From Lacisediminihabitans profunda (lineage in GTDB: Bacteria > Actinomycetota > Actinomycetes > Actinomycetales > Microbacteriaceae), in the NCBI RefSeq assembly GCF_008040105.1, contig NZ_VRMG01000008.1:248001-312000 (forward strand): a stretch of 64,000 nt of DNA. The letters are read 5' to 3'. Below, piece after piece: positions 10,607-26,377 of the stretch. A model generated the notes under the pieces. It did not search any database, was not told the origin of the DNA, and worked only from the letters and a program-made list of their open reading frames with translations. The stretch's first letter is position 1. Every line of letters begins with the position of its first letter. Position numbers and translations under genes: made by a program.

Positions 10607-10697
10607 CGTTTCTCCGGAGGTTTGGTTCCCTGCCGGCCGTATCGAGTCCGAAACGCCCTATTTTTCACCCGTTGAGCCGCGATCCTCCGGAGAAACG
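10607..10697. repeat. CTCCGGAG-bounded palindromic element, copy A
   Basis: 91-bp unit bounded by CGTTTCTCCGGAGG (10607-10620) and CCTCCGGAGAAACG (10684-10697). The interior shares with copy B the words CCGTATCG, TCCGAAA/TCGAAAA, GCCC.ATTT and GTTGAGCCGC. The ends are perfect inverse complements, and each also contains the 8-bp palindrome CTCCGGAG. One of four copies in the window; no gene inside. Confidence 0.8.
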
Positions 10698-10761
10698 TGT
10701 GCGAGAGTCGCCGCCACGGCAGCGACCCGTCGCTCTGTTCCGACCCCGGCCCGCCGCATCC

Positions 10762-10817
10762 GGTTTCTCCTCCGCTCCGACGTTTCTCCTCCGCTTAGAC
10801 CTTCTCCTCCGCTCTGA
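10762..10817. repeat. GGAGAAAC-type iteron array next to copy B
   Basis: Three tandem units of 18-19 bp on the plus strand (TTTCTCCTCCGCTCCGACG and variants) lead directly into the left end of copy B. On the minus strand each unit begins with GGAGGAGAA, i.e. it restarts the element's own terminal sequence. Confidence 0.7.
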
Positions 10818-10907
10818 CGTTTCTCCGGAGGTTTTGTTCTGCGCGCGCCGTATCGCGGTCGAAAAGCCCGATTTCGCCTGGTTGAGCCGCAATCCTCCGG
10901 AGAAAGG
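10818..10907. repeat. CTCCGGAG-bounded palindromic element, copy B
   Basis: Second copy, about 90 bp, with ends CGTTTCTCCGGAGG (10818-10831) and CCTCCGGAGAAA (10894-10905). It is the closest relative of copy A along its whole length and in the same orientation, 120 bp away, in the same cofD-fbiC gap. Confidence 0.8.
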
Positions 10908-10918
10908 CGAGTTGGAGC

Positions 10919-11000
10919 GGGATGCCGCGAGCTGGAGCAGGGTGCAGCCGGGTGCAGCGCGATGCCGCGGGGTGCATCGGGGTGCATCGGGACGCAGCCG
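10919..11000. repeat. Decamer tandem array (GGGTGCAGCG-like)
   Basis: About eight imperfect 10-bp units such as GGGATGCCGC, GGGTGCAGCC, GGGTGCATCG (twice in a row) and GGACGCAGCC between copy B and the fbiC promoter. The rest of the gap to 11147 holds a possible -10 TAGACT at 11078-11083 and no ribosome site close to the fbiC ATG. Confidence 0.6.
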
Positions 11001-11147
11001 GTCGAGGTGAGTCGGGGCACGGCGCAGAGGCCGCGCCGCACAAGCCGCGCATTGTGCACGCCCGAAACATGCCGGCGTTAGACTGGCGGCGAATCTGGTT
11101 TCGCGCCCGGCTTTGGGCTCTTTCTTTCGATCAAGAAACGTTGAGCC

Positions 11148-13772
11148 ATGCCGGAATTCAGTGAAGAAGCCTTCGTCCCCAGCGCATCCGCCATCAGTCG
11201 TGCCCTGAAGCGCGCCGAGACCGGCGTGACGATCGACGCGACCGAGGCCGAGACCCTGCTGCACGCCCGGGGCGCCGACCTCGACCGCCTCCTGGTGGCG
11301 GCCGGTCGCGTTCGGGATGCCGGGCTGGAGCGGGCCGGGCGCCCCGGGGTGATCACCTACTCCCGCAAGGTCTTCATCCCGGTCACCCACCTCTGCCAGG
11401 ACCGCTGCCACTACTGCGCCTTCGTGAAGACTCCCGCGCAGCTCAAGTCCCAGGGCAAGGCGATGTTCATGTCGCCGGACGAGATCCTCGAAGTGGCCCG
11501 AAACGGGGCCGCCCTCGGCTGCAAGGAGGTGCTCTTCACCCTCGGCGACCGGCCGGAGGAGCGCTGGCCGGAGGCGCGGGAATGGCTGGATGCGAACGGC
11601 TACGACTCGACGGTCGCCTACCTGCGGGCGATGGCCGTGCGAATCCTCGAGGAGACCGGACTCCTCGTGCACATGAACCCGGGCGTCATGACCTGGGAGG
11701 AGATCCAGCGCCTCAAGCCCGTCTCGCCGTCGATGGGCATGATGCTCGAGACCACCTCGACTCGGCTCTTCACCGAGAAGGGCCAGGCCCACTACGGGTC
11801 GCCGGACAAGGACCCGGCCATCCGTCTCCGGGTGATCGAGGACGCCGGCCGCAGCAACGTGCCGTTCACCACCGGTCTGCTCCTCGGCATCGGCGAAACC
11901 TACGCCGAGAGAATCGAGGGGCTGTTCGCGATCCGCGCCGCGAGCCGGCGCCACGGGCACATCCAGGAAGTCATCATCCAGAACTTCCGGTCGAAGATGT
12001 CGACCGCGATGATGCGGCGCGAAGACTTGCCGGTAGAGGAATATATCGCCGCCGTGGCCGTGTCGCGCATCGTGCTCGGTCCGGGTGCCCGCCTCCAGGC
12101 ACCGCCGAACCTCACCGACGAGAACGAGCTGGCCATGCTCGTGCGCGCCGGCATCGACGACTGGGGCGGCGTGAGCCCGCTCACCCCCGACCACGTCAAC
12201 CCCGAGCGCCCCTGGCCGAACATCGACGAACTCGCCAGGCTCACGGATGCCGCGGGCTACACCCTGCGCGAGCGCCTCACCGTGCACCCGCACTACGTTC
12301 GCGCGGAGGAGCCGTGGCTCGACCCGCGGCTGCTCCCCCACATCCGCGCTCTCGCCACCCCCGACGGACTCGCCGTCGAGGGCCGGGTTCCGGTCGGACT
12401 GCCGTGGCAGGAGCCGGACCCCGAGTGGATCGGCTCCGGCCGGGTCAACCTCCACACCGAGATCGACACCGAGGGCCGCTCGACCGACCGGCGCAGCGAC
12501 TTCGAGGACGTCTACGGCGACTGGTCCGAGCTGCGCGAGACCGTGGGCGACACCCGACGACCGGTCGGCCACTCGGGCGACCCCGCCGTGCGCGCGGCGC
12601 TGTCCCGCGCCGAGACAGACCCGGCGGGGCTCAGCGACGCCGAGTACCTCGCGCTTCTCGGCGCAGAGGGGCAAGACCTGGATGCGCTCGCCAGCCTCGC
12701 CGACCGGGTGCGCCACGACACGGTCGGCGACCGCGTCGGCTACGTGGTCAATCGCAACATCAACTTCACCAACGTCTGCTACACCGGCTGTCGCTTCTGC
12801 GCCTTCGCGCAGCGCAAGACCGATGCCGACGCCTTCACTCTCTCCATGAAGCAGGTCGGCGACCGGGTGGACGAGGCCTGGAACATCGGGGCGACAGAGA
12901 TCTGCATGCAGGGCGGCATCCATCCCGACCTGCCCGGCACCGCCTACTTCGACCTCGCCCGGCAGGTGAAGGAACGCCAGCCCGGAATCCACCTTCACGC
13001 GTTCAGCCCGATGGAGATCGTGAACGGCGCGGCGCGCACCGGCCTCAGCTATCGGGACTTCCTGCTCGAGGCTCAGGCGGCCGGACTCGACACGATCCCG
13101 GGAACCGCCGCCGAGATCCTCGACGACGAGGTGCGCTGGGTGCTCACCAAGGGGAAGCTGCCGGCCGCGGCCTGGATCGACATCGTGTCGACCGCGCACA
13201 GCATCGGCATCCGCTCGAGCTCCACAATGATGTACGGCCACGTCGACAACCCCACCCACTGGGTCGGGCACCTGCGGACCCTGTCTCGCGTGCAGGACGA
13301 CACGGGCGGGTTCACCGAGTTCGTACTCCTGCCGTTCGTTCATATGAACTCACCGGTATATCTCGCCGGGGTCGCCCGTCCTGGCCCGACCGCCCAGGAG
13401 AATCGGGCGGTGCACGCGGTCGCGCGCCTCATGCTTCACGGCCGCATCGACCACATCCAGACCTCCTGGGTGAAGCTCGGCACGGAGGGCACGCAACTCA
13501 TGCTGCAGGGCGGCGCGGATGATGTGGGCGGCACCCTCATGGAGGAGACGATCAGCCGCATGGCCGGCGCCGACAACGGTTCGGAGAAGACCGTGGACGA
13601 GCTCGAGGAGCTCACCTCGGCGATCGGACGCGAAGCCTACCAGCGCACCACGACGTACGGCGAGCCGTCGGCGGAGCGGCGCGAGGTCGCGCGCCGGAAC
13701 GCGTCCACCGGCTACGCGTCGACGGGCAAGTCGCTTCGGCTGCTGCCGCTGGACGTGGTCAACTCGCGCTGA
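11148..13772 (+). CDS. fbiC: FbiC: fused CofG/CofH Fo synthase (7,8-didemethyl-8-hydroxy-5-deazariboflavin)
   Basis: 874 aa, the length of mycobacterial FbiC. It has two radical-SAM halves. The N-terminal CofG domain has the cluster motif C83-x3-C87-x2-C90 in [10 protein letters not shown]; the C-terminal CofH domain has C544-x3-C548-x2-C551 in VCYTGCRFC. Together they couple tyrosine to the flavin precursor 5-amino-6-ribitylamino-uracil to make Fo, the F420 chromophore. ATG start; a possible -10 TAGACT lies about 65 nt upstream and no clear Shine-Dalgarno is seen. Downstream, the rest of the F420 genes face it on the other strand across a hairpin. Confidence 0.97.
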
Positions 13773-13902
13773 TCGAGCGCGCTCTCCTTCGCGCTGCGGG
13801 CGAGGCAGCGCAAGCCCGAGCAACACCAGCCCACCGAGCGCGGCAACCGGCACGCGTCCCCTGCGGTTCACTCCCGGCGAGTCACTCCAGGGATCGAACC
13901 CG

Positions 13903-13962
13903 GTGAGGTGCCCAGATTCGTCGCATCTGCCGCCGACATAGCGGCAGATGTGGGCACCTCAC
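13903..13962. terminator. Double-stem 60-bp hairpin between convergent fbiC and cofC
   Basis: The outer stem GTGAGGTGCCCA/TGGGCACCTCAC is a perfect 12 bp; the inner stem CATCTGCCGC/GCGGCAGATG is a perfect 10 bp. No T-run follows. Its position between two genes that end facing each other fits a bidirectional terminator. The rest of the 13773-14004 gap shows nothing else recognisable. Confidence 0.65.
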
Positions 13963-14004
13963 CCACCGCGACCATGGCGCGGCAAGGTCGAGCGGGCACC
14001 CGCC

Positions 14005-14622
14005 TCACAAGCCGCGGAACGCGGCCGCCGTCCGCACACCCAGCCGCCCGGCCAACTCCCGAAGCTCCTCGAGCGTGTCGACGTCCCGCCGCAGGCCCGA
14101 AGCTGCGGAAACGGGGAGCACGACGTACCCCGCGGCGGCGTGCGCGGCCGCCGAACCGATGCCGAAGGCGGGCGCATGCGTCGCCGGGCTCAGTGCCGTG
14201 ATGAGGGTGGTTCCCGTGCCGTCCGCATCCGCCACCATCGCCCGCGGATGAGCGGCCGCGAGCCCGAGGGCCTGCCCGAGTTCCTCCGCGCTGAGGGCCG
14301 GCAGGTCGCCGAGAAGGATCGCTACCCCCTCGCCCATTGCGGACCGGGCCGTCGCACGTTCGATGCCCTGCGCGATCGCCGAAGTCAGCCCCGGCGGGCC
14401 CGCCTCCACGACGACGGTAGCGCCGATCCCGGCGAAGTCCGCTGAGGCCTCGGACGACGTGACCACGAGCACCCCCAGCACTCCCGGGGTGGCGAGAGCG
14501 GCCTCCACGGTGTCGAGAGCGATGGCCCGTGCGAGCGATGCGTGCGCGCCGGGCGACCCGCCGAACCGGGACTTCGCGTCCGCCGTGCCCTTCACCGGCA
14601 CGACGACCCACCAGTCAGTCAC
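14005..14622 (-). CDS. cofC: 2-phospho-L-lactate (or PEP) guanylyltransferase, F420 biosynthesis
   Basis: 205 aa. CofC/FbiD activates phospholactate or PEP with GTP to make the donor used by CofD. Features: N-terminal [15 protein letters not shown] nucleotide-binding loop, the [17 protein letters not shown] segment with the acidic GDLP motif, and [10 protein letters not shown] near residue 150. GTG at 14622 overlaps the cofE stop by 8 nt (14615-14622), which implies translational coupling; an open frame further upstream merely runs through cofE. Last gene of the mug-LLM-cofE-cofC run. Confidence 0.93.
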
Positions 14623-15370
14623 GCGCCGCGCGCCCTGCGTCGAAACCCTGGTGCCAGGCCTCATCGGTGCCCAGCCGGAACATGTCCTTCTCCGACGGTC
14701 GAACCAGCACCCGGGCGCCCGGCGCCGCCTCATCGAGCAGGTGCCCCATCCCTCGCACGACGGCCACCGGCAGCCCGCTGGCCTTGCGCTTCACGAGGTC
14801 GGCCGCCGCCGCGATCTCGTCGCCCACCGCGGGCAGGGTGACCTCGAGGGATCGGCCCTGAGCGTCGGTCGAGCCGCGCAGATCCTCGAGCACCACGACC
14901 CCGCTCGCACCGATCGCGACGTCCGTCTGGCCCTCACGCCAGGCTCGGCCGAGCGTGTCGGTGATGATCACGCCGAGTCGGAGCCCGAAGCGTGCAGACA
15001 GGACGGAACGGATGACGCGGGCCGAGGCATCCGGGTCCACCGGCAGCAGCAGGACGGTTCCGTGCGGCGTGTTGGAGGCGTCGACGCCGGCGGCGGCTCC
15101 CACCACCCCGAGCCGGTTCTCCACGATCCGGGTGACCCCGCCGGGGTAGGCGCGCGTCGCCACGACGCGCACGGTCTCGTCGGTGATCGCCTGCTCCCGA
15201 TCCAGCGCAGAGATCATGCGGCCCTCGGCCTTCGACACGACCTTGGAGGTGACGGCGAGGATGTCGCCGTCCTGCAGGCGGCCCTCGGCAGCGTCGCCGA
15301 TGATCGACGCGAGGTCGTCGCCGGAGACGATCTCGGCGATTCCGTCGAGGGCGAAGACGGAGAGCATCAT
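14615..15370 (-). CDS. cofE: F420-0:gamma-glutamyl ligase, single-domain CofE
   Basis: 251 aa. Adds L-glutamate(s) to F420-0 using GTP. The protein matches the CofE core only ([51 protein letters not shown]); it lacks the C-terminal nitroreductase-like domain that mycobacterial FbiB carries. The start is ATG at 15370, giving a 4-nt ATGA overlap with the LLM stop; an immediate second ATG at 15367 is possible. Without the FbiB domain, dehydro-F420 reduction would need another protein or a phospholactate route. Confidence 0.94.
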
Positions 15371-16374
15371 CGGGTGAGCGCCGGCAGCACGTCGCGGGCG
15401 AAGACGTCGATCCACTCGCGCTGGTTGCGGCCGGCGTTGTGCAGGTAGATGCGGTCGAAGCCGAGGTCGAGGTAGCGCTGGATATGTGCGCGGTGCGCGT
15501 CCGGCTGCTCGGACACGAGCATCCTGCCCTCGAAGTCCTCCGCTCGCACGAGCCGGGCGAGCTGTTCGAACTCGAAGGGCGAGCGGATGTCGGAGCGCGG
15601 GAACCGCATCCCGCCGTTCGGCCACTCCGTGATCGCGTTGGTCATCGCCTCGCCGGCGGTGGGCGCCCAACTGAGGTGCAGGCGCAGCACCTTGAGGCTG
15701 CGGGACGGGTCCTTGCCCACCTCCCGCGCCCCCTCGTCGAAGCGGTCGAGGAGCGCGGCGATCTTCTCGATCGGTGCCCCGTCCACGATGAGCCCGTCGA
15801 CCACGCGGCCCGCGCGTTTGGCCGTGACCGGCCCAGAGGTGGCCACGAGGATCGGCGGCGGCGCGTCCGGCATCGTCCACAGCCTGGACGACTCGAGCTT
15901 GAAGAACGTGCCGGAGTGCTTCGCGTCCCGGCCGGCCGCGGAGGCGGTGAAGAGCTTGTTGATCACGTCGACGGCCTCGAACATCCGGTTGATGCGCTCG
16001 GCGGTCTCCGGCCAGTAGGCCCCGGTGACATGCTCGTCGATCGCCTCCCCCGAACCGATGCCGAGCCAGTGTCGACCGGGATACATCGCCTCAAGCGTGG
16101 CGCTCGCCTGGGCGACCATGGCCGGATGCCAGCGAAAGGTCGGCACGGTCATGCCGGTACCGAGGTCCCCGGACGTGGTCTGCCCGAGGGCGCCGAGCAC
16201 GTTCCAGACGAAGCTCGCGTGCCCCTGCCGCGGAACCCAGGGCTGGAAGCGGTCGGCCGCCATGGTGCCGGCGAAGCCGTTCCGCTCGGCGTGGGTGCTC
16301 AGTTCGATGATCTCGGTGGGGTGGAACTGCTCCAGCATGGCGGCGTAGCCGATGTGGGGCGATGTGGGGGGCAT
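15367..16374 (-). CDS. F420-dependent LLM-class oxidoreductase
   Basis: 335 aa, luciferase-like TIM barrel ([57 protein letters not shown]). The group is related to F420-dependent glucose-6-phosphate dehydrogenase, but substrate cannot be told from sequence. ATG at 16374 chosen; upstream sequence belongs to the DNA glycosylase gene, 4 nt away. Translationally coupled to cofE by ATGA, so the enzyme is probably made together with the cofactor pathway. Confidence 0.88.
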
Positions 16375-16378
16375 GCCT

Positions 16379-16975
16379 CTATTCTCGCGTGCCGGGCGAC
16401 GGCCGGGCGAAGACGAGGATCCCGGCCGCCAGCGCGACCTCGCGATAGGCGTCACCGAGGTCGGCGAGGCTCGAGTGGGCGTTGAGCCCGCTCGGATTCG
16501 GCACCACCCACAGCTGGGCGCCACCGATCGTCTCGGGCTGCCGACCGACGAGCGCCTGGCGGCGACCGAAGGCGATGCGGTAGGCGGTGATGCCGAGCAT
16601 CGCGACCGCCGCCGGGCGGAGGCTCTCCACGCGCACCGCCAGGGCCGCGGCCCCGGCCTTCAACTGCTCGTCGTCCAGTTCGTCCGCTCGGCGCGTCGCG
16701 CCCGGCACGAGGCTCGTGATGCCGACTCCCCGGGCTATCAGGTGCTCGCGGTCGGCGGGATCCAGCCCCTCCGAGGCGTCGATCACGCGGTCCACGATTC
16801 CCGCGCGGAAGAGCGCCGGGTAGAAACGGTTGCCGCGCCGACCGAAGTGCGCCTGGACGGCCGCGGTGCGCAGGCCGGGATTGATGCCGACGAAGAGCAG
16901 GCGGAGGCCGGGACCGACGAGATCGGGCAGCGTTCGCCCGCGGAAGGAGTCCAGTTCGGCCGCAGAGATTCCCAC
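16379..16975 (-). CDS. mug: G/U(T) mismatch-specific DNA glycosylase (Mug/TDG family)
   Basis: 198 aa. Removes uracil or thymine from G mismatches. The catalytic-pocket motif LFVGINPGLRTA is near residues 28-39 and the DNA-insertion loop NPSGLNAH near residue 160. GTG start, with TAGGGT at 16982-16987 leaving 6 nt before it, so probably leaderless. First gene of the operon that continues into the LLM enzyme and cofE/cofC; no functional link to F420 is known, so this is likely a convenience operon. Confidence 0.9.
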   Translation of the reverse strand: MGISAAELDSFRGRTLPDLVGPGLRLLFVGINPGLRTAAVQAHFGRRGNRFYPALFRAGIVDRVIDASEGLDPADREHLIARGVGITSLVPGATRRADELDDEQLKAGAAALAVRVESLRPAAVAMLGITAYRIAFGRRQALVGRQPETIGGAQLWVVPNPSGLNAHSSLADLGDAYREVALAAGILVFARPSPGTRE

Positions 16976-17009
16976 CCCTGCACCCTACGGCACGGCCCAG
17001 GCGGCAGGA

Positions 17010-17369
17010 TCAGTTCTCGAGGTCCCTCGCGCGCAACTCGGCCTCGAGCCGTCGGATGCGGTCCTCATTCTCGCTGTCGCGGATCTCCCGTTCGAGCGCC
17101 TCGATTTCACGCTCGGTGCTGCTGCTGCTCGGCAGCGGCACCGGCGTCTCCCGCCGCCGCGGGTCGCCGAAGCTCCCCCGGTCGACGACCTGGGGACGCT
17201 CCCGGCCGATGGCGAACCACACGATCGAGCCGACCAGCGGCAACAGGATCACGATCAGGAGCCACAGCGTCTTGTCGAGATGCCGGATGCGCCCCTGGTC
17301 GGAGCCGATGATGTCGACGAGGGCGGCGATCACGATTCCGAGGACCACAAGGGGCAGGATGAGGTACAT
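17010..17369 (-). CDS. PLDc_N-domain membrane protein with C-terminal coiled coil
   Basis: 119 aa. Two membrane helices at residues about 2-20 and 35-53 with the family motif TLWLLIVILLPLVGSIVW, then a cytoplasmic tail containing a charged probable coiled coil (TEREIEALEREIRDSENE). This is the phospholipase-D N-terminal-type helical hairpin found alone in many actinobacterial small proteins; no catalytic HKD motif is present. ATG at 17369, with TAAGAT at 17376-17381 6 nt upstream, so probably leaderless. Role unknown. Confidence 0.8.
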   Translation of the reverse strand: MYLILPLVVLGIVIAALVDIIGSDQGRIRHLDKTLWLLIVILLPLVGSIVWFAIGRERPQVVDRGSFGDPRRRETPVPLPSSSSTEREIEALEREIRDSENEDRIRRLEAELRARDLEN

Positions 17370-17836
17370 GAGGCGATCTTAGGGAATCAAGGGGCCGATG
17401 ACGAGGCTCGATCGGCTCGAATTCGACGATTGTTCGATTGATCGAATTTTTCCTTGCGTGCCGGTCGCTCCTGCCGGTACGGTGATCAAGCGCCATCGTC
17501 GAAAGGAGGCCAGCGTGTACACCACAGATATTCCGGGAATGTCCCGAATCCCCGCCGGCTTCGTCGGCGTCCCCACCGCCTGATCGGCTAGCGCCGCTTC
17601 CCTCGGAAGCACATTCCGCCACCGGTCCTGACGGTGGTGACGCTCTCGAAGCCCGTCCCGGCAGGCCTCAACGCGGCGATCATCGTCGCGCCTGCTCGGG
17701 TCCACCACCCCGCACGGCACCGTCACCGACGCGCCGTCCCATCCGCCGCTCTCGGAGCGGCTCCCGCCGCACCGGGCGACGGCGAACGCAACCGCGTTCG
17801 CGCGCGCCCGCTGCCGCACGCAGAGGAACATCACGA
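17370..17836. other. Gap with AT-rich palindromes and candidate small frames
   Basis: The AT-rich patch 17411-17450 contains TCGAATTCGA (17417-17426) and TTCGATTGATCGAA (17433-17446), which look like regulator sites. A GTG-started 22-codon frame with a strong AAAGGAGG follows at 17515-17583. A second frame, 17634-17840, ends overlapping the ATG at 17837; it is rich in Ala, Arg, His and Pro and I cannot tell whether it is coding. Confidence 0.4.
17515..17583 (+). CDS. Candidate 22-aa peptide with strong ribosome site
   Basis: GTG start preceded by AAAGGAGG (17502-17509) at 5 nt, the best Shine-Dalgarno in this part of the window, followed by VYTTDIPGMSRIPAGFVGVP and two more codons before TGA. 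It is not a recognised family. Its position ahead of the 93-aa gene could make it a leader or a microprotein. Support rests only on the ribosome site and the plausible frame. Confidence 0.35.
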   Translation: MYTTDIPGMSRIPAGFVGVPTA

Positions 17837-18118
17837 ATGAATAGCACCGCGTCTCACAATGCCGTGTCGACCACTCCCGGTCGCCACGATCATCCGCCCC
17901 AATCCCGGCAGTACCGTCGGGAGCGCCCCGCTCGTCGGGTGAGCCTGCTCGACCGGGCAGCGCTGCACCTCGGCGTGGCCCTGATCAAGTGGGGGCGCCG
18001 TCCGCTCGACGTCGAGTCGCGCGAGAGGCGTGCCCGCCGCGTCGAGCAGCAGATCGCCCGCCTCGAGCGCGAGCGCGCCACCGAACGGTGGGTCCGGCTC
18101 AACCTGCCGCAGCGCTGA
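17837..18118 (+). CDS. Small basic protein of unknown function
   Basis: 93 aa, ATG at 17837. A disordered, basic N-terminal third is followed by an amphipathic core VSLLDRAALHLGVALIKWGRRP and an Arg/Glu-rich helix. I recall similar short proteins carrying the LLDRAALHLG...W.RRP pattern in actinobacteria but know no assigned function. There is no catalytic motif or signal peptide. It may be co-transcribed with the small frames upstream, whose last stop overlaps its start codon. Confidence 0.6.
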   Translation: MNSTASHNAVSTTPGRHDHPPQSRQYRRERPARRVSLLDRAALHLGVALIKWGRRPLDVESRERRARRVEQQIARLERERATERWVRLNLPQR

Positions 18119-18137
18119 TGAAGGCGGATGCGACGGA

Positions 18138-18168
18138 GACCGCCGTCGGGGATGCCCCGGCGGCGGTC
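18138..18168. terminator. Hairpin between convergent genes
   Basis: GACCGCCG and CGGCGGTC close a stem that continues with CGGGG/CCCCG (one mismatch between them) around a tiny loop. It sits between the 93-aa gene (plus strand) and the F420-dependent glucose-6-phosphate dehydrogenase gene (minus strand), as expected of a shared terminator. Confidence 0.65.
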
Positions 18169-18175
18169 GTCCGCG

Positions 18176-19198
18176 CTAGGCCAGGGCTCGGAGGCGCGGT
18201 GCGAGATCCTTCTCGAAGAGGCTGAGGAAGCGCCGCTGATCCTGGCCCGGGCCGTGGAAAACCAGGTGGTTGAAGCCGGCGTCGAGGTAGGTCTTGATCT
18301 CGGCGACGACGAGTTCGGGGTCGGCGCCCACGATGAAGCGGGAGGCGATCCGCTCGATCGGCAGGGCATCCGCCGCGGCCTCCATCTCGATCGGGTCGGT
18401 GATGTCGTGCTTCTGCTCCTTGGAGAGCGCCAGCGGGGCCCAGAACCGGGTGTTCTCCAGCGCCGCCTCGACGGTGGTGTCGTAGGAGAGCTTGATCTCG
18501 ATCATCCGGTCGATGCCGGCGGAATCCCGGCCGGCCTTGTCTGCGCCCTCCTGCACTGCAGGGATGAGCTGCTCGGTGTAGAGCTCCATGCCCTTGCCGG
18601 ACGTGCAGATGAAGCCGTCGCCGGCCCGCCCGGCGTACCGGGCGACGACCGGGCCGCCGGCCGCGATGTACACCGGCACCGGGAAGTCCGGACGATCGTA
18701 GATGGAGGCCCCGTGGGTGGAGTAGTACTCGCCCTGGAAGTCGACCCGGTCCTCGGTCCAGAGCTGACGCATCAGCGAAACCGCCTCGCGCAGGCGAGCG
18801 AAGCGCTCCTTGAACTCCGGCCAGTCCTGCTCCCCCGCGCCGCGGAATCCGGTCGCGATCTCGTTCAGCGCCTCGCCGGTGCCGACCCCGAGCATGATCC
18901 GCCCCGGATACAGGCACCCCATCGTCGCGAACGCCTGGGCGATCACGGCCGGGTTGTACCGGAACGTCGGCGTCATCACCGAGGTGCCGATCTGCACCGT
19001 CGTCGTGCGTTCGCCGACGGCCGCCATCCAGGCGAGCGAGAACGGCGCGTGCCCGCCGGCGTGCCGCCAGGGCTGGAAGTGGTCGCTCACCGCGACGCTC
19101 TCCATGCCGTGCGCCTCCGCGGCGACCGCGATCTCCACCAGCTCACGCGGGTCGAACTGCTCGGCGGAGGCCTTGTAACCGAGTTTGAGGGGAAGCAT
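18176..19198 (-). CDS. fgd: F420-dependent glucose-6-phosphate dehydrogenase
   Basis: 340 aa. Oxidises glucose-6-phosphate to 6-phosphogluconolactone while reducing F420 to F420H2, the main source of the reduced cofactor in actinobacteria. The sequence follows mycobacterial Fgd1 closely: [58 protein letters not shown] and the phosphate-site region [23 protein letters not shown] at 19198 preferred to an upstream frame start at 19222 because homologues begin at this Met. Together with cofC/D/E and fbiC the locus covers both synthesis and recycling of F420. Confidence 0.95.
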
Positions 19199-19261
19199 GA
19201 CTCCATCCTGCCACCAGACCAATTGCCGCCGCTCGCGCGCACGGCGACTGTCGGGGCGGGG

Positions 19262-19744
19262 CTACAGCTTCTGGAGGAAGTCGGCCACCGAGCGCGGAAC
19301 ATACGGGCTCACGTCTCCGCCGAGCGCCGCAACCTGGCGAACAAGCGAGCTCGACACGTGGGCGTGGGCCGGATCCGGCAGCATGAAGATGGTCTCCACC
19401 CCGGCGAGGTTGCGGTTGACGATCGCCATGGGCGTCTCGTAGGCCACGTCCACCTGGGAACGCACACCCTTCACGAGCACGCTCGCGCCGACATCCGTGC
19501 AGTAGTCGACGAGCAGGCCGACGCTCCAGGAGGTGACCGTGATGTTCTCCGGCAGACCGCCCTCGGCGATCGCCCGCTCGATGAGGGCCACGCGCTGGGC
19601 AACCGGAAGCAGGGCCGACTTGTCCGGGTTGTGCACGACCAGGACGTGCAGCTGATCGAAGATCCCCGCAGCGCGTTCGATGACGTCCAGATGACCGAGG
19701 GTCACGGGGTCGAAGGAACCAGGGACGACGGCGATCCTGTTCAT
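19262..19744 (-). CDS. coaD: Phosphopantetheine adenylyltransferase
   Basis: 160 aa, standard length. Catalyses the fourth step of coenzyme A synthesis. Nucleotidyltransferase signature [17 protein letters not shown] (TxGH, residues about 9-25) and the SSSLVR motif near residue 130 are present. Probably leaderless: TAGTCT at 19752-19757, then 7 nt, then ATG. It lies 68 nt beyond recG on the same strand; in many actinobacteria coaD clusters with recG and rsmD, as here, though corA and a small gene intervene. Confidence 0.96.
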
Positions 19745-19812
19745 GTCTCTGAGACTATCGGCTCGACGTTACTGACTTGTGACATCGACCCGTCCTGTTG
19801 CGGAGTGAGTCT

Positions 19813-21993
19813 TTAATTCTTGGCGAGGAAGTCGCGACTGGCCTCGTCGAGGCGACGATCGAGAGCCGCCCGCAGGGCCGGATGGCCCGCGAGGGCGGGG
19901 TCGTCGTCGAGTACCGCCCTGGCGATCGCGCGGGCCTCGGTGATCAACTCGCCGTCCCTGGCCACTCGAAGCAGGCGCAGGGACGACCGACCGCCGGACT
20001 GCACACTGCCGAGCACGTCGCCCTCCTGGCGCAGTTCCAGGTCCTTCTGCGCCAGTTCGAAGCCGTCGAGGGTGGAGGCGACCACCTCGACGCGCTCGCG
20101 GGCCACCGTGCCGTCCTCGGCATCCGTCACCATGAGACACAGCCCAGGCACGCCACCGCGCCCCACCCGGCCGCGCAGCTGGTGCAGTTGGGAGACGCCG
20201 AAGCGGTCGGCGTCCAGGATCACCATCGTCGACGCATTGGGCACGTCGACGCCCACCTCGATCACCGTCGTCGCGACGAGCACGTCGATCTCGCCCCGGG
20301 CGAACGCGCGCATGATCGCGTCCTTCTCCTCGCTCGGCAGCCGCCCGTGCAGCGCCTCGATGCGGGCGGATGCGAGCAGCGGGTTCGCGCGCAGTTCGGC
20401 GAGCACATCGGTGACGTTCGCCCGCTTGGCCGGACTCGACTCGAGTTCGTCGTCGGTGTCGTCCACCGTCGTCGAGTCGATCGCCGGGCACACGACGAAG
20501 CCCTGCCTGCCCTTCGCGAGCTCTTCGGCGAGACGCTCCCAGACCCGGTTCACCCAGCCCGGCTTGTCGGCGAGCGGCACGACGAAGCTCTGGATCTGCA
20601 CCCGGCCGGACGGCAGTTCAGCGATCGTCGACACGTCCAGGTCGCCGAAGACCGTCATCGCGACAGTCCGCGGGATGGGCGTGGCGGTGAGCACGAGCAC
20701 GTGCGGCGGAGTCGCGCCCTTGCGTCGCAGGGCCTCGCGCTGTTCCACCCCGAAGCGGTGCTGCTCGTCGACGACGACGAGTCCGAGATCGAAGAAGCCG
20801 ACGCTCTCGCTCATCAGGGCGTGCGTGCCGACGACGATGTTCGCCTGGCCGGAGACGGCGGCGAGGAGCGCCTTGCGCTTGTCGGCTGCCGGAAGCTGCC
20901 CGGTGATGATCGCGGGCCGGAGGGACGCGGCGAGGTCCGGACCGAGGGTCTTCACGATCGACCGCAGGTGCTGGCCCGCCAGCACCTCGGTGGGTGCCAG
21001 CAGCGCCGACTGACCGCCGGAGTCCGCCACCGCGAGCATCGCCCGCAGCGCCACGAGAGTCTTGCCCGACCCCACCTCGCCCTGGACGAGCCGGTTCATC
21101 GGCGCCGCCGCAGCGATATCGTCGGCGATCTCGGCCCCGACCGTGGTCTGGTCGCCGGTGAGGGTGAAGGCGAGTTGGGCGTCGAAGCGTTCCAGGTATC
21201 CGCCGGCCCTGGGCACCCGCGGAACGGCGGCCTGCTCGCGCAATGACTGACGCTGCTGCAGAAGCGCGGCCTGGAGAACGAACGCCTCCTGGAACCGCAG
21301 CGCCTTGCGCGCCGCCCCCCAGTCGGCATCCTTCTGCGGACGGTGGATCAGCTCGACGGCCCGGGAGTAGCTCATGAGCTTGCGGTCGCCGCGCACCGGC
21401 CCCGGCACCGGATCGGCGAGCGGTGGCAGGGTGTCGAGAACGACGCCGATCGCCTTCTGCAGTTGCCAGGAGGCGACGGTGGCCGTGGCCGGGTAGATCG
21501 GGATCGGCTGTTCGGCCCACTTGCGGGCCAGCTCGTCGGCGGCTGCGGTCTCGCCGTCCGCCGCACCGCCTTCCGCATCCGGCTTCTCGAAGAGCTCGTA
21601 GTCGGGGTGAGCGAGCTGCATCGTGCCCCGGTAGTCGCCCACCTTGCCGGCGAAGATGCCGCGCACTCCTGGCCGCAGCTCCTTGGCGCGCCAGGCCTGG
21701 TTGAAGAAGGTGAGGGTGAGGATGCCCTTTCCGTCGCTGATCCGCACCTCGAGGATCGACCCGCGCTTCGCCCGCATCGGCCGCTCCCGGCTCTCGATCA
21801 CCTCAGCGACGATCGTGACGTTCTCGTCGAGCGGAAGCTCGGTGAGCGCCGTGAGCTCACCGCGCTGGGCGTAGCGGCGCGGATAGTGGCTCAGAAGGTC
21901 GCCGACCGTCGCGAGCCCGAGGCCCTTCTCGATCGCCGAGGCCGTGCGCCCGCCGAGGGCGGTGCTGAGCTTCGCATCGAGGGGGGATTCCAC
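19813..21993 (-). CDS. recG: ATP-dependent DNA helicase RecG
   Basis: 726 aa. Remodels stalled forks and branched DNA. It has an N-terminal wedge/OB domain (about residues 55-160), then SF2 helicase motifs: Walker A GEVGSGKT, DEQHRFGVEQR, TATPIPRT, and the conserved TRG-region RVGRGGVPGLC in the C-terminal half. GTG start at 21993 with TACCCT 6 nt upstream and a GGAGG touching the start. The gene is followed by coaD on the same strand. Confidence 0.95.
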   Translation of the reverse strand: MESPLDAKLSTALGGRTASAIEKGLGLATVGDLLSHYPRRYAQRGELTALTELPLDENVTIVAEVIESRERPMRAKRGSILEVRISDGKGILTLTFFNQAWRAKELRPGVRGIFAGKVGDYRGTMQLAHPDYELFEKPDAEGGAADGETAAADELARKWAEQPIPIYPATATVASWQLQKAIGVVLDTLPPLADPVPGPVRGDRKLMSYSRAVELIHRPQKDADWGAARKALRFQEAFVLQAALLQQRQSLREQAAVPRVPRAGGYLERFDAQLAFTLTGDQTTVGAEIADDIAAAAPMNRLVQGEVGSGKTLVALRAMLAVADSGGQSALLAPTEVLAGQHLRSIVKTLGPDLAASLRPAIITGQLPAADKRKALLAAVSGQANIVVGTHALMSESVGFFDLGLVVVDEQHRFGVEQREALRRKGATPPHVLVLTATPIPRTVAMTVFGDLDVSTIAELPSGRVQIQSFVVPLADKPGWVNRVWERLAEELAKGRQGFVVCPAIDSTTVDDTDDELESSPAKRANVTDVLAELRANPLLASARIEALHGRLPSEEKDAIMRAFARGEIDVLVATTVIEVGVDVPNASTMVILDADRFGVSQLHQLRGRVGRGGVPGLCLMVTDAEDGTVARERVEVVASTLDGFELAQKDLELRQEGDVLGSVQSGGRSSLRLLRVARDGELITEARAIARAVLDDDPALAGHPALRAALDRRLDEASRDFLAKN

Positions 21994-22024
21994 CCTCCGA
22001 GGGTACCCGCGACCGCCGACCCCG

Positions 22025-22264
22025 CTAGTACGACGAGGGTGCGAGCCGCGCGAGGAGGGTTGCGACGACCTGCGTCACGACCGGTGCCGCGACGGTGATC
22101 ACGAGCACGGCGACCACGCAGAGTGCAGACACCGCCGCGACCATAACGACGAGTTGCACGGCGAGGGATGCCCGCCGCGGTTCGGCGACGGCCTCCGGCG
22201 GGGTGAAGAGTGCCTCGAGTTCGGAGGGCTCCGCCTCCGCCGTCTGCACGCCATCCTCGCTCAC
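22025..22264 (-). CDS. Small single-helix membrane protein downstream of corA
   Basis: 79 aa. A soluble acidic N-terminus of about 30 residues, then one long hydrophobic stretch (LAVQLVVMVAAVSALCVVAV and beyond) and a short tail. GTG at 22264 overlaps the corA stop by 4 nt (GTGA), so it is translated with corA and may associate with it. The longer frame upstream runs through corA and was not used. No known family recognised. Confidence 0.65.
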   Translation of the reverse strand: MSEDGVQTAEAEPSELEALFTPPEAVAEPRRASLAVQLVVMVAAVSALCVVAVLVITVAAPVVTQVVATLLARLAPSSY

Positions 22265-23385
22265 AGCCAGCGCCGGTTGCGGAAGATCGCGAACAGCCCG
22301 CCGCTCACCGCCACCATCAGCAGGATCGCGATCGGGTAACCCAACGGCCAGGCCAGCTCCGGCATCACGTGGAAGTTCATCCCGTAGATCCCGGTGATGA
22401 TCGAGGGCGCGAACAGGATGGCCGCCCACGCGGAGATCTTGCGGGCCTCCTCCGCCTGGCGGTTGCTCGCCTCCCCCACCTTCTGCATGTCCTCGTTCTG
22501 GCGCTGGGCCACGAGCGTCGCATTCACCGTGAGGATGTCGCGGAGCAGAATGCGGAACTCCTCGATGCGCTCGTTGACGTTCGTGACGTGGTCGGCGACA
22601 TCCCGCAGGTATTGCTGCAGGTCCTCACCGATCTTGTACTTCTCGAAACCGTGCGAGATCTGATCGAGCATGCCGATCAGCGGGCGGGCGGCCCGCTCGA
22701 AATCGATAACCTCGCGGGACAGCTCGTAGATGCGCCGGGAGACGCTCGGGTCCCCGTCGAACACCTGCGTCTCGATCTCGTCGATGTCGTTCGAGAGGCC
22801 GGCGACGACGGGCGCGTAGCCGTCGACCACGGCGTCGAGAATCGCGTACAACACCGCCTCGGTGCCACGGGCGAGCAGTTCGGGCGTGCGCTCGAGGCGG
22901 CCGCGCACCAGCGAGAGGTCCGGCGACTCGGCGTGCCGCACCGTGATCACGAAGTTGTGACCGATGAACACGTGCAGCTCGCCGAACTCCACCTCCTCCT
23001 TCGCGTCGAGGTAGCGGGCGGCGCGCAAGACGACGAACAGGGTCGACCCGTAGCGCTCGATCTTCGGCCGTTGGTGGGCGACGATCGCGTCTTCGACGGC
23101 GAGCTCGTGCAGGCCGAACTGGTCGGCGAGCGAGGTTATCTCCGCGGTGGTCGGACGGTAGAGCCCGATCCATGCCATCGAGCCCGGCCGCGCCTCGAGC
23201 GCCGCGAACGTGTCGTCGAGGGAGTCGAGGGTCGCGACGCGGCATCCGTCTTCGTAGATCGCATTGTTGACCAGGCTCGGCCGAATCGGAGGGGCGAGGT
23301 CGGGGGTCTCTGGAACGACGCTCGGCGGCAGGTGACGAGGGCGGAACGTCATGACGCGGAACGGCTTGCGGAAATCGGGAGCCAT
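22261..23385 (-). CDS. corA: CorA-type magnesium/cobalt transporter
   Basis: 374 aa. A large cytoplasmic alpha/beta N-terminal domain and long helix are followed by two C-terminal membrane helices, with the pore signature YGMNF at about residue 327. It forms pentameric Mg2+ channels in the inner membrane. ATG at 23385 chosen: TACCGT lies 6 nt upstream (leaderless), and the open frame further upstream translates the intergenic repeat. The MPELAW loop after YGMNF replaces the common MPE sequence normally. Confidence 0.93.
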   Translation of the reverse strand: MAPDFRKPFRVMTFRPRHLPPSVVPETPDLAPPIRPSLVNNAIYEDGCRVATLDSLDDTFAALEARPGSMAWIGLYRPTTAEITSLADQFGLHELAVEDAIVAHQRPKIERYGSTLFVVLRAARYLDAKEEVEFGELHVFIGHNFVITVRHAESPDLSLVRGRLERTPELLARGTEAVLYAILDAVVDGYAPVVAGLSNDIDEIETQVFDGDPSVSRRIYELSREVIDFERAARPLIGMLDQISHGFEKYKIGEDLQQYLRDVADHVTNVNERIEEFRILLRDILTVNATLVAQRQNEDMQKVGEASNRQAEEARKISAWAAILFAPSIITGIYGMNFHVMPELAWPLGYPIAILLMVAVSGGLFAIFRNRRWL

Positions 23386-23434
23386 GCTCCCACGGTAATC
23401 CCGCCCGGTAGACAATTGGCAGAACGGCGGGCAT

Positions 23435-23527
23435 GTTCCGGCTCGTTCCTCGGCTCGTTCCTCGGCTCGGCTCCGTCTCCCGCCCGGGCGCGTTCTCCCG
23501 CCCAGGCGCGTTTCTCCGGCTCGGGCG
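23435..23527. repeat. GGAGAAAC-type iteron array next to copy C
   Basis: On the minus strand, reading away from copy C, there are four units of 17-19 bp (GGAGAAACGCGCCCGAGCC, GGAGAAACGCGCCTGGGCG, then shorter variants) and two copies of GAGGAACGAGCC. The array decays with distance from the element. Confidence 0.7.
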
Positions 23528-23629
23528 CGTTTCTCCGGAGGTTTCGCGATCCGCCGGATGCCGTGGCCCGTACCCTTTGGCCAGGAGGGACCGCGACGGT
23601 GCGCGGATCCGCGATCCTCCGGAGAAACG
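23528..23629. repeat. CTCCGGAG-bounded palindromic element, copy C
   Basis: 102-bp unit with ends CGTTTCTCCGGAGG (23528-23541) and CCTCCGGAGAAACG (23616-23629). Its right end (CCGCGATCCTCCGG) matches copy A, while its left end (GGTTTCGCG) matches the inverse of copy D. It lies between the divergent corA and rsmD genes, upstream of both promoters. Confidence 0.8.
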
Positions 23630-23684
23630 CGGCTCGGGGCCGCGGAATCGGGGACGGCACGGCCGCCGGTAGGCTCGTTGCGCC

Positions 23685-24251
23685 ATGACACGCATCATCG
23701 CCGGGTTCGCCGGCTCCCTGACCCTCGCGACGCCGGGCTCCGGCACCCGCCCCACGAGCGATCGGGTTCGCGAGGCGATCTTCTCGGCCCTCGACGCCCG
23801 GGACGTGATCGCCGGAGCCCGCGTGCTCGACCTCTACGCCGGCTCCGGTGCGCTCGGCCTCGAGGCCGCGAGCCGGGGCGCCGCGCAGGTGACTCTCGTG
23901 GACCGCGTCGCCGCCGCCGCCAACGTCTGCCGCAAGAACGCCGCCGTCGTGCTCGGCCGCGCTCCGAAGAACAGCGAGCTGCGTGTCGTCGTGTCCGGTC
24001 AGGCCGCTCAGGCCTTCCTCGACTCGACCCTCGACGAGTGGGATCTCGTCTTCCTCGATCCGCCATACGACCTCGACGAGGCCGAGCTCGCGCAGAGCCT
24101 GGAGTCCCTGTCCAGGCGCCTCGCCGCGGATGCCGTGGTGCTGGTGGAACGCAGCAGCCGGTCCCCGGAACCCGCCTGGCCATCCGGAATCGAGCTCGAC
24201 CGCCGCAAAGACTACGGCGACACGACGCTGTGGTGGGCCCGCTCCGTCTGA
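23685..24251 (+). CDS. rsmD: 16S rRNA (guanine(966)-N(2))-methyltransferase
   Basis: 188 aa, standard length. SAM-dependent methyltransferase of the 30S subunit. N-terminal TRIIAGFAGSLTLATPGSGT, SAM motif I VLDLYAGSGALGLEA and catalytic motif IV LVFLDPPYD (about residue 126) are all present. The ATG follows TAGGCT by 9 nt, so the mRNA is likely leaderless or nearly so. Copy C of the intergenic repeat ends 55 nt upstream. Confidence 0.95.
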   Translation: MTRIIAGFAGSLTLATPGSGTRPTSDRVREAIFSALDARDVIAGARVLDLYAGSGALGLEAASRGAAQVTLVDRVAAAANVCRKNAAVVLGRAPKNSELRVVVSGQAAQAFLDSTLDEWDLVFLDPPYDLDEAELAQSLESLSRRLAADAVVLVERSSRSPEPAWPSGIELDRRKDYGDTTLWWARSV

Positions 24252-24271
24252 GGCCGAATTGCTCGCGGCTC

Positions 24272-24335
24272 GCGGCGGGGATAGCGCGTCACGGCGGGAG
24301 TCTCGCCTCCCTCCGCCACGATATGTCCCCGCCGC
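24272..24335. terminator. 64-bp hairpin between convergent rsmD and thiL
   Basis: The perfect 10-bp outer stem GCGGCGGGGA/TCCCCGCCGC encloses a second imperfect GC-rich stem. It follows the rsmD stop by 20 nt. The remaining 24336-24483 is GC-rich without a recognisable gene. Confidence 0.6.
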
Positions 24336-24483
24336 CGGGTGCGGCTTCCCCCGCCGCGAGGGCGCTGGACGCCGTTTCCGCCGCTGCCGGGCCGGCGCAC
24401 GGGAGCGTTTATCCGTCCGCGACGGCACGACTCCCGCCGCGGGTGCACCGGCGACGAAGCGGAGGGGAGATGCGAGGCGAACG

Positions 24484-25470
24484 CTACCCGGCGGACCCGC
24501 TCCAGTCGCGATAGGGGTCCCAGCCGGCCGAATCGTGCGGCGCCCCGTCCACGGTGAGGCCCTCCCCGGCCACGCAGACTCCGATGCGGCGGAACGGCGC
24601 GGGCAACGGCGTCCCGGCGGGGAAGGTCGCGAGCAACGAATGGTCCTCACCGCCGCCGAGCGCCAGGGCCGGGTCCGCGCCGCCAGCGCGAAGCGAGGCG
24701 AGATCGAAGTCGATGCCCAGCCCGCTCGCCCGCGCTAGCCGGGCCGAGTCGATGGCGAGCCCGTCGCTCAGGTCGAGCATCGCCGTCGCCCCGGCGAGCG
24801 CGGCGATCTTCCCCGCGGAAATCGGCGGCGTGGGTGCCAGCTGCGGCGCGGTGCGTGGGCGCAGGGCGGTCGCGAGCCGGGCATCCGGATGTCCGAGCGG
24901 GTCGACCGCCTCCGTGAAGAGAAGCGAGAGGGCGGCGGCGGCCTCGCCGAGCACACCGGCCACGGCGACGATGTCGCCCACCCGCGCCCCGGAGCGCAGC
25001 ACGGGAGGCCGTCCCTCGAGGTCGCCGAAGGCGGTGACGGCGATCGTGAGCGTCGGCGACACGGAGAGGTCGCCTCCGACCACCCCGCAGCCCGGCGCAA
25101 GCGCGGCGCACGCGTCCCGCAGCCCATCCGCGATGCCTTCGAGCAGTGTGACGGGCGAGTCGGCCGGGGCGGCGATCGCCACCACGAGCGCGGTCGGGAC
25201 CGCACCCATCGCCGCGACGTCGGAGAGGTTGGATGCCGCGGCCTTCCAGCCGAGATCGTGCGGCGTCGACCAGGCGAGACGGAAGTCCGGACCGTGGATC
25301 ATCATGTCCGTCGTCACCACGAAGCGGCCGTCCGGCGCGGCGACCACCGCCGCGTCGTCACCCGGCCCGAGGAGGCCCGCCACCGAGTCGGGCAGTCGGG
25401 GAAAGATTCGGAGGAGCGCCGCGCTCTCCCCGATACTGGCGAGGGTGTCGTGGTCGCGCGGGGAGGGCAT
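24484..25470 (-). CDS. thiL: Thiamine-monophosphate kinase
   Basis: 328 aa, family length. Phosphorylates thiamine monophosphate to the diphosphate coenzyme with ATP. PurM/ThiL-type fold: GPGDDAAVV near residue 36, the metal-binding TTDMMIHGPDFR, GVVGGDLSVSP and MLDLSDGLAIDSAR. ATG at 25470 with TAGCGT 7 nt upstream, probably leaderless. Divergent from the RraA-like gene; often adjacent to the DUF3515 and rsmD genes in this group, as here. Confidence 0.94.
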   Translation of the reverse strand: MPSPRDHDTLASIGESAALLRIFPRLPDSVAGLLGPGDDAAVVAAPDGRFVVTTDMMIHGPDFRLAWSTPHDLGWKAAASNLSDVAAMGAVPTALVVAIAAPADSPVTLLEGIADGLRDACAALAPGCGVVGGDLSVSPTLTIAVTAFGDLEGRPPVLRSGARVGDIVAVAGVLGEAAAALSLLFTEAVDPLGHPDARLATALRPRTAPQLAPTPPISAGKIAALAGATAMLDLSDGLAIDSARLARASGLGIDFDLASLRAGGADPALALGGGEDHSLLATFPAGTPLPAPFRRIGVCVAGEGLTVDGAPHDSAGWDPYRDWSGSAG

Positions 25471-25548
25471 GCCTCAAACGCTACCGTTATGTGCAACGGC
25501 CCCGAGTACAGGCACCGCGGCCGAGCCGAGCGAGGAGACGACGCCCCC

Positions 25549-26256
25549 ATGGACAATGACACCCTGGCCAGCAGGTTCGAGAAGCTCACGACCGCTCATC
25601 TCGCCGACGGCTGCGTCCGGGCCGGTGTCGCGGTGCGGTGTGCTCCGACCGGACTCGTCGCGCTGGCCGCGGGCATGCGCCTTGCCGGCCGGGTGATTCC
25701 GGTGCGTCATGTCGGCAGCGTCGACATCTTCCTCGAGGCCTTCGAGTCGTGCGCGCCCGGCGACGTTCTCGTGGTCGACAACGGGGGCCGACTCGACGAG
25801 AGCTGCGTGGGCGACCTGGTGGCCCTCGAGGCCGCGTCCGCCGCACTGGGCGGCATCGCGGTGTGGGGGCTCCACCGCGACACCGTCGACATCCTCGCCA
25901 TCGGCCTGCCACTGTTCAGCCTCGGAGCCCTCCCGACCGGGCCCCTGAGCGTGGGCGACCGGGCGCCGGACGCGCTGGACGCCGCAACGGTCGGCGAGTG
26001 GACGGTGGGCCGGCGCGACCTCGTCTTCGGAGACGAGGACGGCGTGCTGTTCGTCCCGGCAGAGGAGGCCGAGCGGGTGTTCTCCCTCGCCGAGTCGATC
26101 AGGGACACCGAGCGGATGCAGGCGGAACGCATCCGCTCCGGGGTCTCCCTGCGCAGCCAGGTGCGCCTCGGCGACTTCCTCGCGAGCCGGGCGCTCGATC
26201 CCGGCCTGAGCTTCCGCGACCACCTGCGCACCGTCGGGGGCGAGATCGAGGTGTGA
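25549..26256 (+). CDS. RraA-family protein (aldolase/RNase E-inhibitor fold)
   Basis: 235 aa. RraA-like fold with SRFEKLTTAHLADGCVRAG, AGRVIPVRHVGS, GDVLVVDNGGRLDESCVGDL and GGIAVWGLHRDTVDI in family order. The family includes 4-hydroxy-4-methyl-2-oxoglutarate aldolases, dehydratase-like enzymes and RNase E regulators; the C-terminal extension beyond about residue 185 favours an enzyme over the short RraA regulators. ATG at 25549 chosen; GAGGAG lies 12 nt upstream. The long open frame upstream of this Met overlaps thiL on the other strand and is not coding. Confidence 0.8.
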   Translation: MDNDTLASRFEKLTTAHLADGCVRAGVAVRCAPTGLVALAAGMRLAGRVIPVRHVGSVDIFLEAFESCAPGDVLVVDNGGRLDESCVGDLVALEAASAALGGIAVWGLHRDTVDILAIGLPLFSLGALPTGPLSVGDRAPDALDAATVGEWTVGRRDLVFGDEDGVLFVPAEEAERVFSLAESIRDTERMQAERIRSGVSLRSQVRLGDFLASRALDPGLSFRDHLRTVGGEIEV

Positions 26257-26278
26257 TCGGAGCCGCCACGAACCAAAG

Positions 26279-26377
26279 CTTCTCCGGAGGTTCGTGCTTC
26301 GCGGGGCAGGCACGAGCGCGCGTTGCCTGCGAGTGCGGGCTTCGGAATCCGGATGTCCGCGAAACCTCCGGAGAAAC
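26279..26377. repeat. CTCCGGAG-bounded palindromic element, copy D
   Basis: About 99 bp, ends CTTCTCCGGAGG (26279-26290) and CCTCCGGAGAAAC (26365-26377). The inside contains a further hairpin TCGTGC/GCACGA. The right flank is equivalent to the left flank of copy C in inverse orientation. Confidence 0.78.

Follow-up and report, generated by a model that had tools for sequence, protein, structure and literature searches.

Within a 64,000-nucleotide stretch of the Lacisediminihabitans profunda genome (contig NZ_VRMG01000008.1, positions 248,001 to 312,000; hereafter the window), four short elements with inverted ends, named A to D, lie between genes, one of them ahead of a gene that we take from its sequence to be rsmD (Table 1). 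The window belongs to a 4.02 Mb draft genome (98.97% complete) of the Microbacteriaceae, here designated G000; other G numbers denote comparison genomes, and gene names are assigned from sequence. In this work, we describe the dispersed family of these elements (F1) and its strong genomic link to genes for a predicted nuclease, of which the elements are, judging from sequence comparison, the likely DNA partner.

The four bounded units of a preliminary description of this DNA proved real: all were found in the window, the family is dispersed genome-wide, and their 12-mer ends are exact, with the exception of one mismatch in the right end of B and one in the left end of D. The interior that A and B were said to share is likewise present (81% identity over the first 57 nt and 96% over the last 25 nt). 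All four were judged to be intergenic, the open reading frames (ORFs) that a crude gene caller placed over C and beside D being taken as spurious. That description did not include the regular lengths, the degenerate half-site arrays that flank B, C and D, or two more families in the window (F4 and F6). The evidence from the window by itself is modest, with 15 end matches (up to two mismatches) against 6.3 expected, 15 being reached in 1 of 100 shuffles; an Rfam scan of the window returned no RNA family above its gathering score except a tRNA.

Table 1. F1 elements of the window and the half-site arrays next to them.
Feature	Positions	Strand	Details
F1 element A	10607..10697	.	core TTCTCCGGAG..CTCCGGAGAA 10610-10694, 85 bp
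Array abutting B	10763..10818	.	three 18-19 bp degenerate copies of the outer half-site (GTTTCTCCTCCGCTCCGAC)
F1 element B	10818..10908	.	tandem relative of A; core 10821-10904, 84 bp
Array abutting C	23476..23531	.	three 18-19 bp degenerate outer half-sites
F1 element C	23528..23629	.	core 23531-23626, 96 bp; core end 59 bp before rsmD
F1 element D	26278..26377	.	core 26280-26375, 96 bp
Array right of D	26378..26500	.	degenerate outer half-sites (..GAGAAACACG..); extent judged by eye

The F1 family across the genome

A search of the genome for the spaced ends, as had been suggested, gave decisive evidence: the paired pattern TTCTCCGGAG-N52..82-CTCCGGAGAA has 49 matches on each strand of G000 and none in a reversed control, and the 12-mer TTTCTCCGGAGG occurs 75 times, again with none in the reversed control. 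The paired pattern is present in 7 of 398 genomes of the family. F1 has the inverted orientation, conserved ends and variable spacer of a doublet, each element carrying two inverted copies of a near-invariant end (CGTTTCTCCGGAGGTTTCG) of 16-21 bp around a free interior sequence. The end reads CGCG-TTTCTCCGGAGG-TTTCG; among ends from copies chosen with at most one mismatch, nine of ten core positions agree in 100/100 ends and the tenth in 99%.

Core lengths fall into discrete classes. The reading of G000 loci gave 58 pairings, of which eight were dropped (lengths of 72, 101, 102, 107, 116, 119 and 119 bp, and locus L153 at 86 bp), and the remaining 50 have cores of 74-75 (5), 83-86 (33), 94-96 (10) and 106 bp (2). 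Apart from L153, located within an ORF, and one pair of 119 bp, every dropped length, those of the relatives given below included, re-uses an end that belongs to a kept element, either within an array or by overlap. The 119 bp pair occupies a single conserved coding site, shared by G000 (L135) and G010 (L184; ends exact); it is out of phase and was taken as a coincidence. A set of 57 non-redundant copies from G000, G010, G012 and G118, from which relatives' lengths of 68, 109, 119 and 130 bp, pairings mismatched at two or more positions and near-duplicates (75% identity of the interior) were also removed, contains only lengths of 74-76, 83-86, 94-97 and 105-106 bp, with 0 of the 57 between these classes. 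A period of 10.6 bp fits best (R 0.887), a regularity equalled in 0 of 5000 random sets with uniformly distributed lengths.

Interiors differ between loci, and adjacent copies mostly share interior and flank; therefore, local tandem duplication is common. Two to four neighbouring direct repeats, each comprising an element and its flank and spaced by about 140-220 bp, were seen at each of ten F1 loci (L135, L136, L137, L141, L145, L146, L148, L152, L155 and A/B in the window), and degenerate outer half-site arrays extend outward from many F1 elements.

At the counterpart of the A/B gap no F1 end was found in the four genomes in which the gene to its left was available for comparison (G001, G002, G003 and G011), one lone end lying in G001 inside the gene next to the gap, and at the counterpart of C, upstream of rsmD, none was found in eight genomes. 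At A/B and C, the outcome that according to the preliminary description would speak against a dispersed family (fixed orthologous positions only) was thus not observed; some other F1 sites are common to G000 and G010, namely that at acs and two more. Counts of TTTCTCCGGAGG are patchy, with 75, 15 and 16 occurrences in three genomes of the genus and 0-1 in the other ten. Seven 16-mer matches in Microbacterium, inspected among the matches listed, were single ends just before an ATG and not elements, and many others among the matches listed are estimated to be expected by chance.

Nuclease genes between matching elements

The preliminary description had proposed a RAYT-type transposase as the partner to look for; PF01797 has no match in the genome (the control was positive in 5 of 14 genomes), and a gene of AbiEi_4/DUF559 type is associated with the elements instead. 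Comparison of neighbours placed such a gene between two elements of another family, F2, in G002 and in G034, which belongs to another genus. A relative, about 30% identical, lies between F1 elements in G000, G010 and G012, the resident G000 gene (C65:198650) being enclosed by elements 1.1 kb apart. Further, the ends of families F3 and F5 (F5-type ends) bracket the G000 nuclease genes C106:361197 and C65:100267, respectively, and F4 ends occur upstream of a truncated AbiEi-type nuclease relative at C117:794228.

The protein of the F1 loci matches the Pfam families REase_MTES_1575 (E 1e-9) and DUF559 (3.5e-6), with a sub-threshold AbiEi_4 match (6e-4), and that of the F2 loci has a sub-threshold DUF559 match only; a search of NCBIfam gave no match. 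In PADLOC the F1 protein matches HEase (E 1e-5) and AbiEi (4.5e-4). Homology to PDB entries 3hrl (E 1e-7) and 3r3p, a 'Mobile intron protein' (E 3e-4) that we take to be I-Bth0305I, was also detected. The putative catalytic residues are conserved (E201 in 30/30 sequences, and D227, E237 and D239 in 29/29 each); both the homology of the catalytic domain and the acidic residues are those of an EDxHD/Vsr-like nuclease. The protein is predicted to combine an AbiEi_4-like helix-turn-helix (HTH) with a DUF559/Vsr-like domain, as a nuclease related to the EDxHD homing endonucleases.

Among the best 30 of 73 matches of a profile search, 29 loci could be tested, the thirtieth having no downstream side, and in 25 of these a matching inverted-repeat element stands on both sides of the gene, within 320 bp and sharing 9 or more of 10 letters of the end. 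The same test was passed by 2 of 145 other genes scored, both being the F1 nuclease gene in other loci, which leaves 0 of 143. Furthermore, the similarity of ends tracks the identity of the proteins (Spearman 0.37 for 26 loci, reached in 0 of 2000 permutations), the mean end match being 15.6 at protein identities of 0.5-0.7 versus 7.1-7.4 below 0.4.

The nuclease lineages occupy fixed positions, about seven syntenic ones, including acs|ridA, manA, dapD|gltA, glyS and trmD|rimM, among others. The acs|ridA position holds a nuclease gene in G000, G010, G012 and G289, and the stretch inspected after acs in G001-G009 has neither nuclease gene nor F1. Where G000 has F1 and the nuclease, the 3' region of acs in G009 (L217) and locus L220 of G007 carry REP-like repeats (GGTTTCGATACG...CTACTCAACC; GGTCTCGACAAGCTCGACC), possibly the same kind of element.

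Other means of spread were also considered. The paired pattern in one viral contig was rejected as a coincidence inside an ORF; 57 stretches of viral contigs matched nuclease relatives and none was confirmed, and a plasmid search gave one partial match. A composite transposon, with two elements bracketing ordinary genes, was discarded, the ORFs between elements at the five loci inspected being housekeeping-like as judged from their sequence. The elements could also be classical miniature inverted-repeat transposable elements (MITEs) or insertion sequence remnants of a DDE transposase, with an autonomous copy supposed to lie outside the draft (no search aimed at DDE transposases was made). Such an origin would suit short, dispersed elements with terminal inverted repeats, present even inside ORFs that we take from their sequence to be mutM, smc and dnaX; however, little interior is shared at most loci, near-perfect ends occur in copies with unrelated interiors, no consistent target duplication was seen by eye, and another enzyme gene has the matching flanks; we consider such an origin very improbable.

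Further families and duplex geometry

An unbiased scan for inverted 10-mers at distances of 60-116 bp, run over 1.66 Mb of G000, ranked F1 first (23 bins), followed by F3 (TTCCGAAATCCATGCA, 22), F2 (10), F6 and F4 (7 each) and F5 (4). With mismatches allowed, F3 cores measure 81-82 bp (22/22), and those of F5 83-84 and 94-95 bp (8/8), one helical turn apart. F2, with ends AAAACGCAGGAGAT, has 11 copies in the scanned 1.66 Mb, and in ten of them the 10-mers of both ends are exact. Among the loci collected, 33 distinct copies have 80 (16), 81 (16) or 82 bp (1) between 16-mer ends, one chained pairing of 102 bp standing outside this count. Ends are paired in 105 cases and solo in 2 over the same 1.66 Mb (F1 41:1, F2 14:1, F3 38:0, F5 12:0), three mismatches being allowed in the partner. 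In the window, an F6 element (GCGGCGGGGAAA...) occupies 24272-24335 (to 24357), F6 being mostly 64-65 bp long and dispersed in G000, and an F4 array of TTGTGCAGGAC / TCTGCAGGAC units lies at 63595-63753.

At two sites, different families occur in different species. The linker of smc carries F2 in G004, G006 and G011, where G000 carries F1, and the gap upstream of rsmD has F2 half-sites in G009 (L199 423-502; same place in L418) and F1 element C in G000.

Interior sequences, with ends trimmed and phase locked to the element centre, show A/T phasing of about 10.25 bp in F1 (z about 13, 57 copies) and F2 (z about 20, 30 copies), each reached in 0 of 200 shuffles; for F3, z is about 10 at 9.5-10 bp, from 22 copies that were not made non-redundant and partly share their interior. 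Pairing between the two interior halves of the same element was compared with a null built from halves of other copies. At the centre of F1 (84-bp class) it was 0.378 versus 0.363, with 140 of 500 permutations as high, and in F3 it was not above chance (376 of 500); F2 displays no centre excess (309 and 197 of 500), and pairing is weakly raised next to the ends only (2 and 11 of 500). The A/T phasing, together with the lack of pairing excess in F1 and F3, argues for a constraint on duplex geometry and not on a hairpin. Length regularity and phasing point to duplex DNA that would be looped or wrapped, rather than to a transcript hairpin, the two inverted ends being on the same helix face, about 6, 7, 8 or 9 turns apart.

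These measurements bear on two alternatives. In the first, an undetected Y1 transposase would move the units as single-stranded hairpins, of REPIN/RAYT type or another, and the inverted doublets, variable spacer and nearby enzyme gene are indeed hallmarks of REPINs in the report on that system (PMC3116915). Nevertheless, besides the missing PF01797 match, interior complementarity is not above chance in F1 and F3, is weak and next to the ends only in F2, and the 10.6 bp regularity of lengths is a property of duplex DNA; we therefore find this explanation hardly credible.

The second alternative is that the elements are transcription terminators or mRNA-stabilising hairpins. Most copies are in intergenic gaps, their long inverted ends can pair, and F3 and F5 lean to convergent gaps (10/22 and 6/8). 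Yet according to the contexts assigned by a crude GC-frame gene caller, 20 of the 30 F1 pairings in 1.66 Mb occupy tandem gaps, 3 convergent and 5 divergent ones, the other 2 lying within ORFs, and of the 11 F2 copies 3 are in divergent gaps and 2 inside ORFs, so that the elements do not keep to the downstream side of genes as intrinsic terminators do. Lengths that keep to the helical repeat and the free interiors of F1 also speak against this alternative, to which we give only a slight chance. The preliminary description had called the units mobile or transcript-structuring. It is supported in so far as the family is dispersed and enzyme-associated; a transcript-structuring role is not supported, given the placement in tandem, convergent and divergent gaps and inside ORFs and the lack of interior pairing excess in F1 and F3. 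F1-like elements were also seen inside long ORFs of G118 (L193 2643-2717 and 3147-3221; L194 2971-3045), presumably dnaX and a cydDC-like gene.

Proposed mechanism and comparison with known systems

With a DNA partner of a chromosomal nuclease as the preferred reading, the following mechanism may be envisaged. The HTH of the nuclease would recognise the element ends; a dimer, or a dimer of dimers, would bridge both ends, with the interior between them held as a tight, pre-bent loop that spans 6 to 9 turns; and the nuclease domain would nick or cut at the bridged element. Repair or copying after nicks could then lead to spread, local tandem duplication and outer arrays, as is thought for RAYTs with REPINs, and selection would maintain ends, length and bend. 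We infer looping from the spacing and bend, and nicking and spread from the class of the enzyme and the analogy with REPIN/RAYT.

Several points weigh against the partnership of nuclease and element. The profile search covered 20 genomes and yielded 73 nuclease matches, at least one per genome, of which only the best 30 were read as loci, and four of the 29 testable ones fail the flank test (L297, L308, L315 and L326), the failure of L297 being due solely to a downstream element located beyond 320 bp, which a wider window recovers. Since the lineages sit at about seven syntenic positions, the loci do not represent independent events. Despite 11 F2 copies, the G000 draft yielded no F2-type nuclease, and F6 has no known nuclease partner. 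G118, G021 and G086 have 4, 2 and 2 F1-like pairs, and no F1-type nuclease appeared among the 4 of 13 nuclease matches with flanks read (2 of 3 in G118, 1 of 3 in G021 and 1 of 7 in G086). The interior of F3 is not free, with a mean pairwise identity of 0.50. No consistent direct repeat suggestive of target-site duplication was apparent in F1 flanks inspected by eye. Further, an F2 insert of 76 bp is present in frame in mutM of seven genomes (G000, G002, G004, G006, G009, G010 and G012); in six of them, G012 being left out as a near-duplicate of G010, end identity is 0.96 (3 of 26 columns vary) and interior identity 0.39 (38 of 40 tested columns vary), values from copies chosen by their ends (at most three mismatches each), which biases them toward conserved ends. 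Neutral decay would not keep both ends and length while randomising the interior, which argues for selection on them and counts in favour of the proposed reading; persistence in mutM, on the other hand, suggests selection at the level of the host, something a purely selfish element does not predict.

This last observation would fit a host architectural or regulatory element, in which the paired sites would let a host DNA-bridging protein form small loops that act as topological insulators or operators, the nuclease gene being bracketed by chance or encoding an architectural protein that has itself been domesticated. Such an element would account for purifying selection on the ends and length of the orthologous mutM insert, and on bend generally, for the intact F2 copies of G000 without a detected F2 nuclease, and for the location of most copies between genes. 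Conversely, end sequence follows the nuclease lineage, several families coexist in one genome, and the copy number of TTTCTCCGGAGG is patchy within the genus; because a general host protein would not predict lineage-specific ends, this explanation is weakened, and we consider it unlikely.

The partnership of nuclease and element resembles REPIN/RAYT (Bertels and Rainey 2011, PMC3116915) in that inverted doublets with a short conserved end and a variable spacer of constrained length are dispersed between genes, several families occur per genome, and specific enzyme genes are near their own elements. The enzyme gene is bracketed by its own family in the present system as well (25/29 loci), with a different enzyme. 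This enzyme is of the PD-(D/E)XK/EDxHD-type DUF559 class, not a Y1 HUH transposase; the spacer is without hairpin pairing, F1 lengths following whole helix turns and A/T being phased; and solo ends amount to 2/107, against 18% of REPs given as singlets in SBW25 in that report (PMC3116915). As the enzyme and hairpin comparisons failed, the elements are not filed under REPIN/RAYT; rather, we read them as part of a system that resembles REPIN/RAYT but is based on an unrelated nuclease. No description of such an association was found among titles and abstract openings, subscription papers being largely outside reach, and the absence of a described family with this motif, as claimed in the preliminary description, agrees with our finding no published kind of dispersed, enzyme-associated repeat family to which it belongs. 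Our results thus suggest an undescribed nuclease-and-element system in several Microbacteriaceae genera.

With the EDxHD homing endonucleases (3r3p) and the Vsr/DUF559 nucleases, the proteins share a homologous catalytic domain and the conserved E, D and ExD; they differ in the added AbiEi_4-like HTH, the bracketing inverted pairs, and the dispersal of the same ends in up to about fifty copies. Intergenic nuclease lineages at fixed positions with patchy presence also recall homing genes, although no cut allele or intron was seen here. BIMEs of enteric bacteria are, like these elements, inverted pairs of palindromic units between genes, with ends, a spacing rule and a partner that are different.

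As a tentative and somewhat doubtful extension, these elements could represent a second, independently evolved REPIN/RAYT-like world, in which relatives of homing endonucleases with an AbiEi-type DNA-binding domain would each maintain and spread their own paired, helically phased, pre-bent sites, each genome of a whole bacterial family having several such families; a looped pair would be tolerated and an unpaired site cut, broken elements thus being purged, hence the purifying selection. If the association of nuclease and element is true, two or more unrelated enzymes act as partners of dispersed palindromic repeats in bacteria, and a substrate that may be read from the genome can be assigned to AbiEi/DUF559 genes, which carry annotations as antitoxins or as of unknown function. 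Since the likely cognate end stands beside each enzyme gene, recognition would be predictable lineage by lineage. The element would also constitute an evolved natural library of short DNA loops, useful for DNA mechanics, in which ends are fixed, the interior is free, and length and bend are selected, and it offers a possible account of in-frame inserts of 75-85 bp such as those in mutM and smc. Finally, another dispersed short repeat, of about 40 bp, was observed in G118 (matches at query 2073-2116 and 2138-2213).

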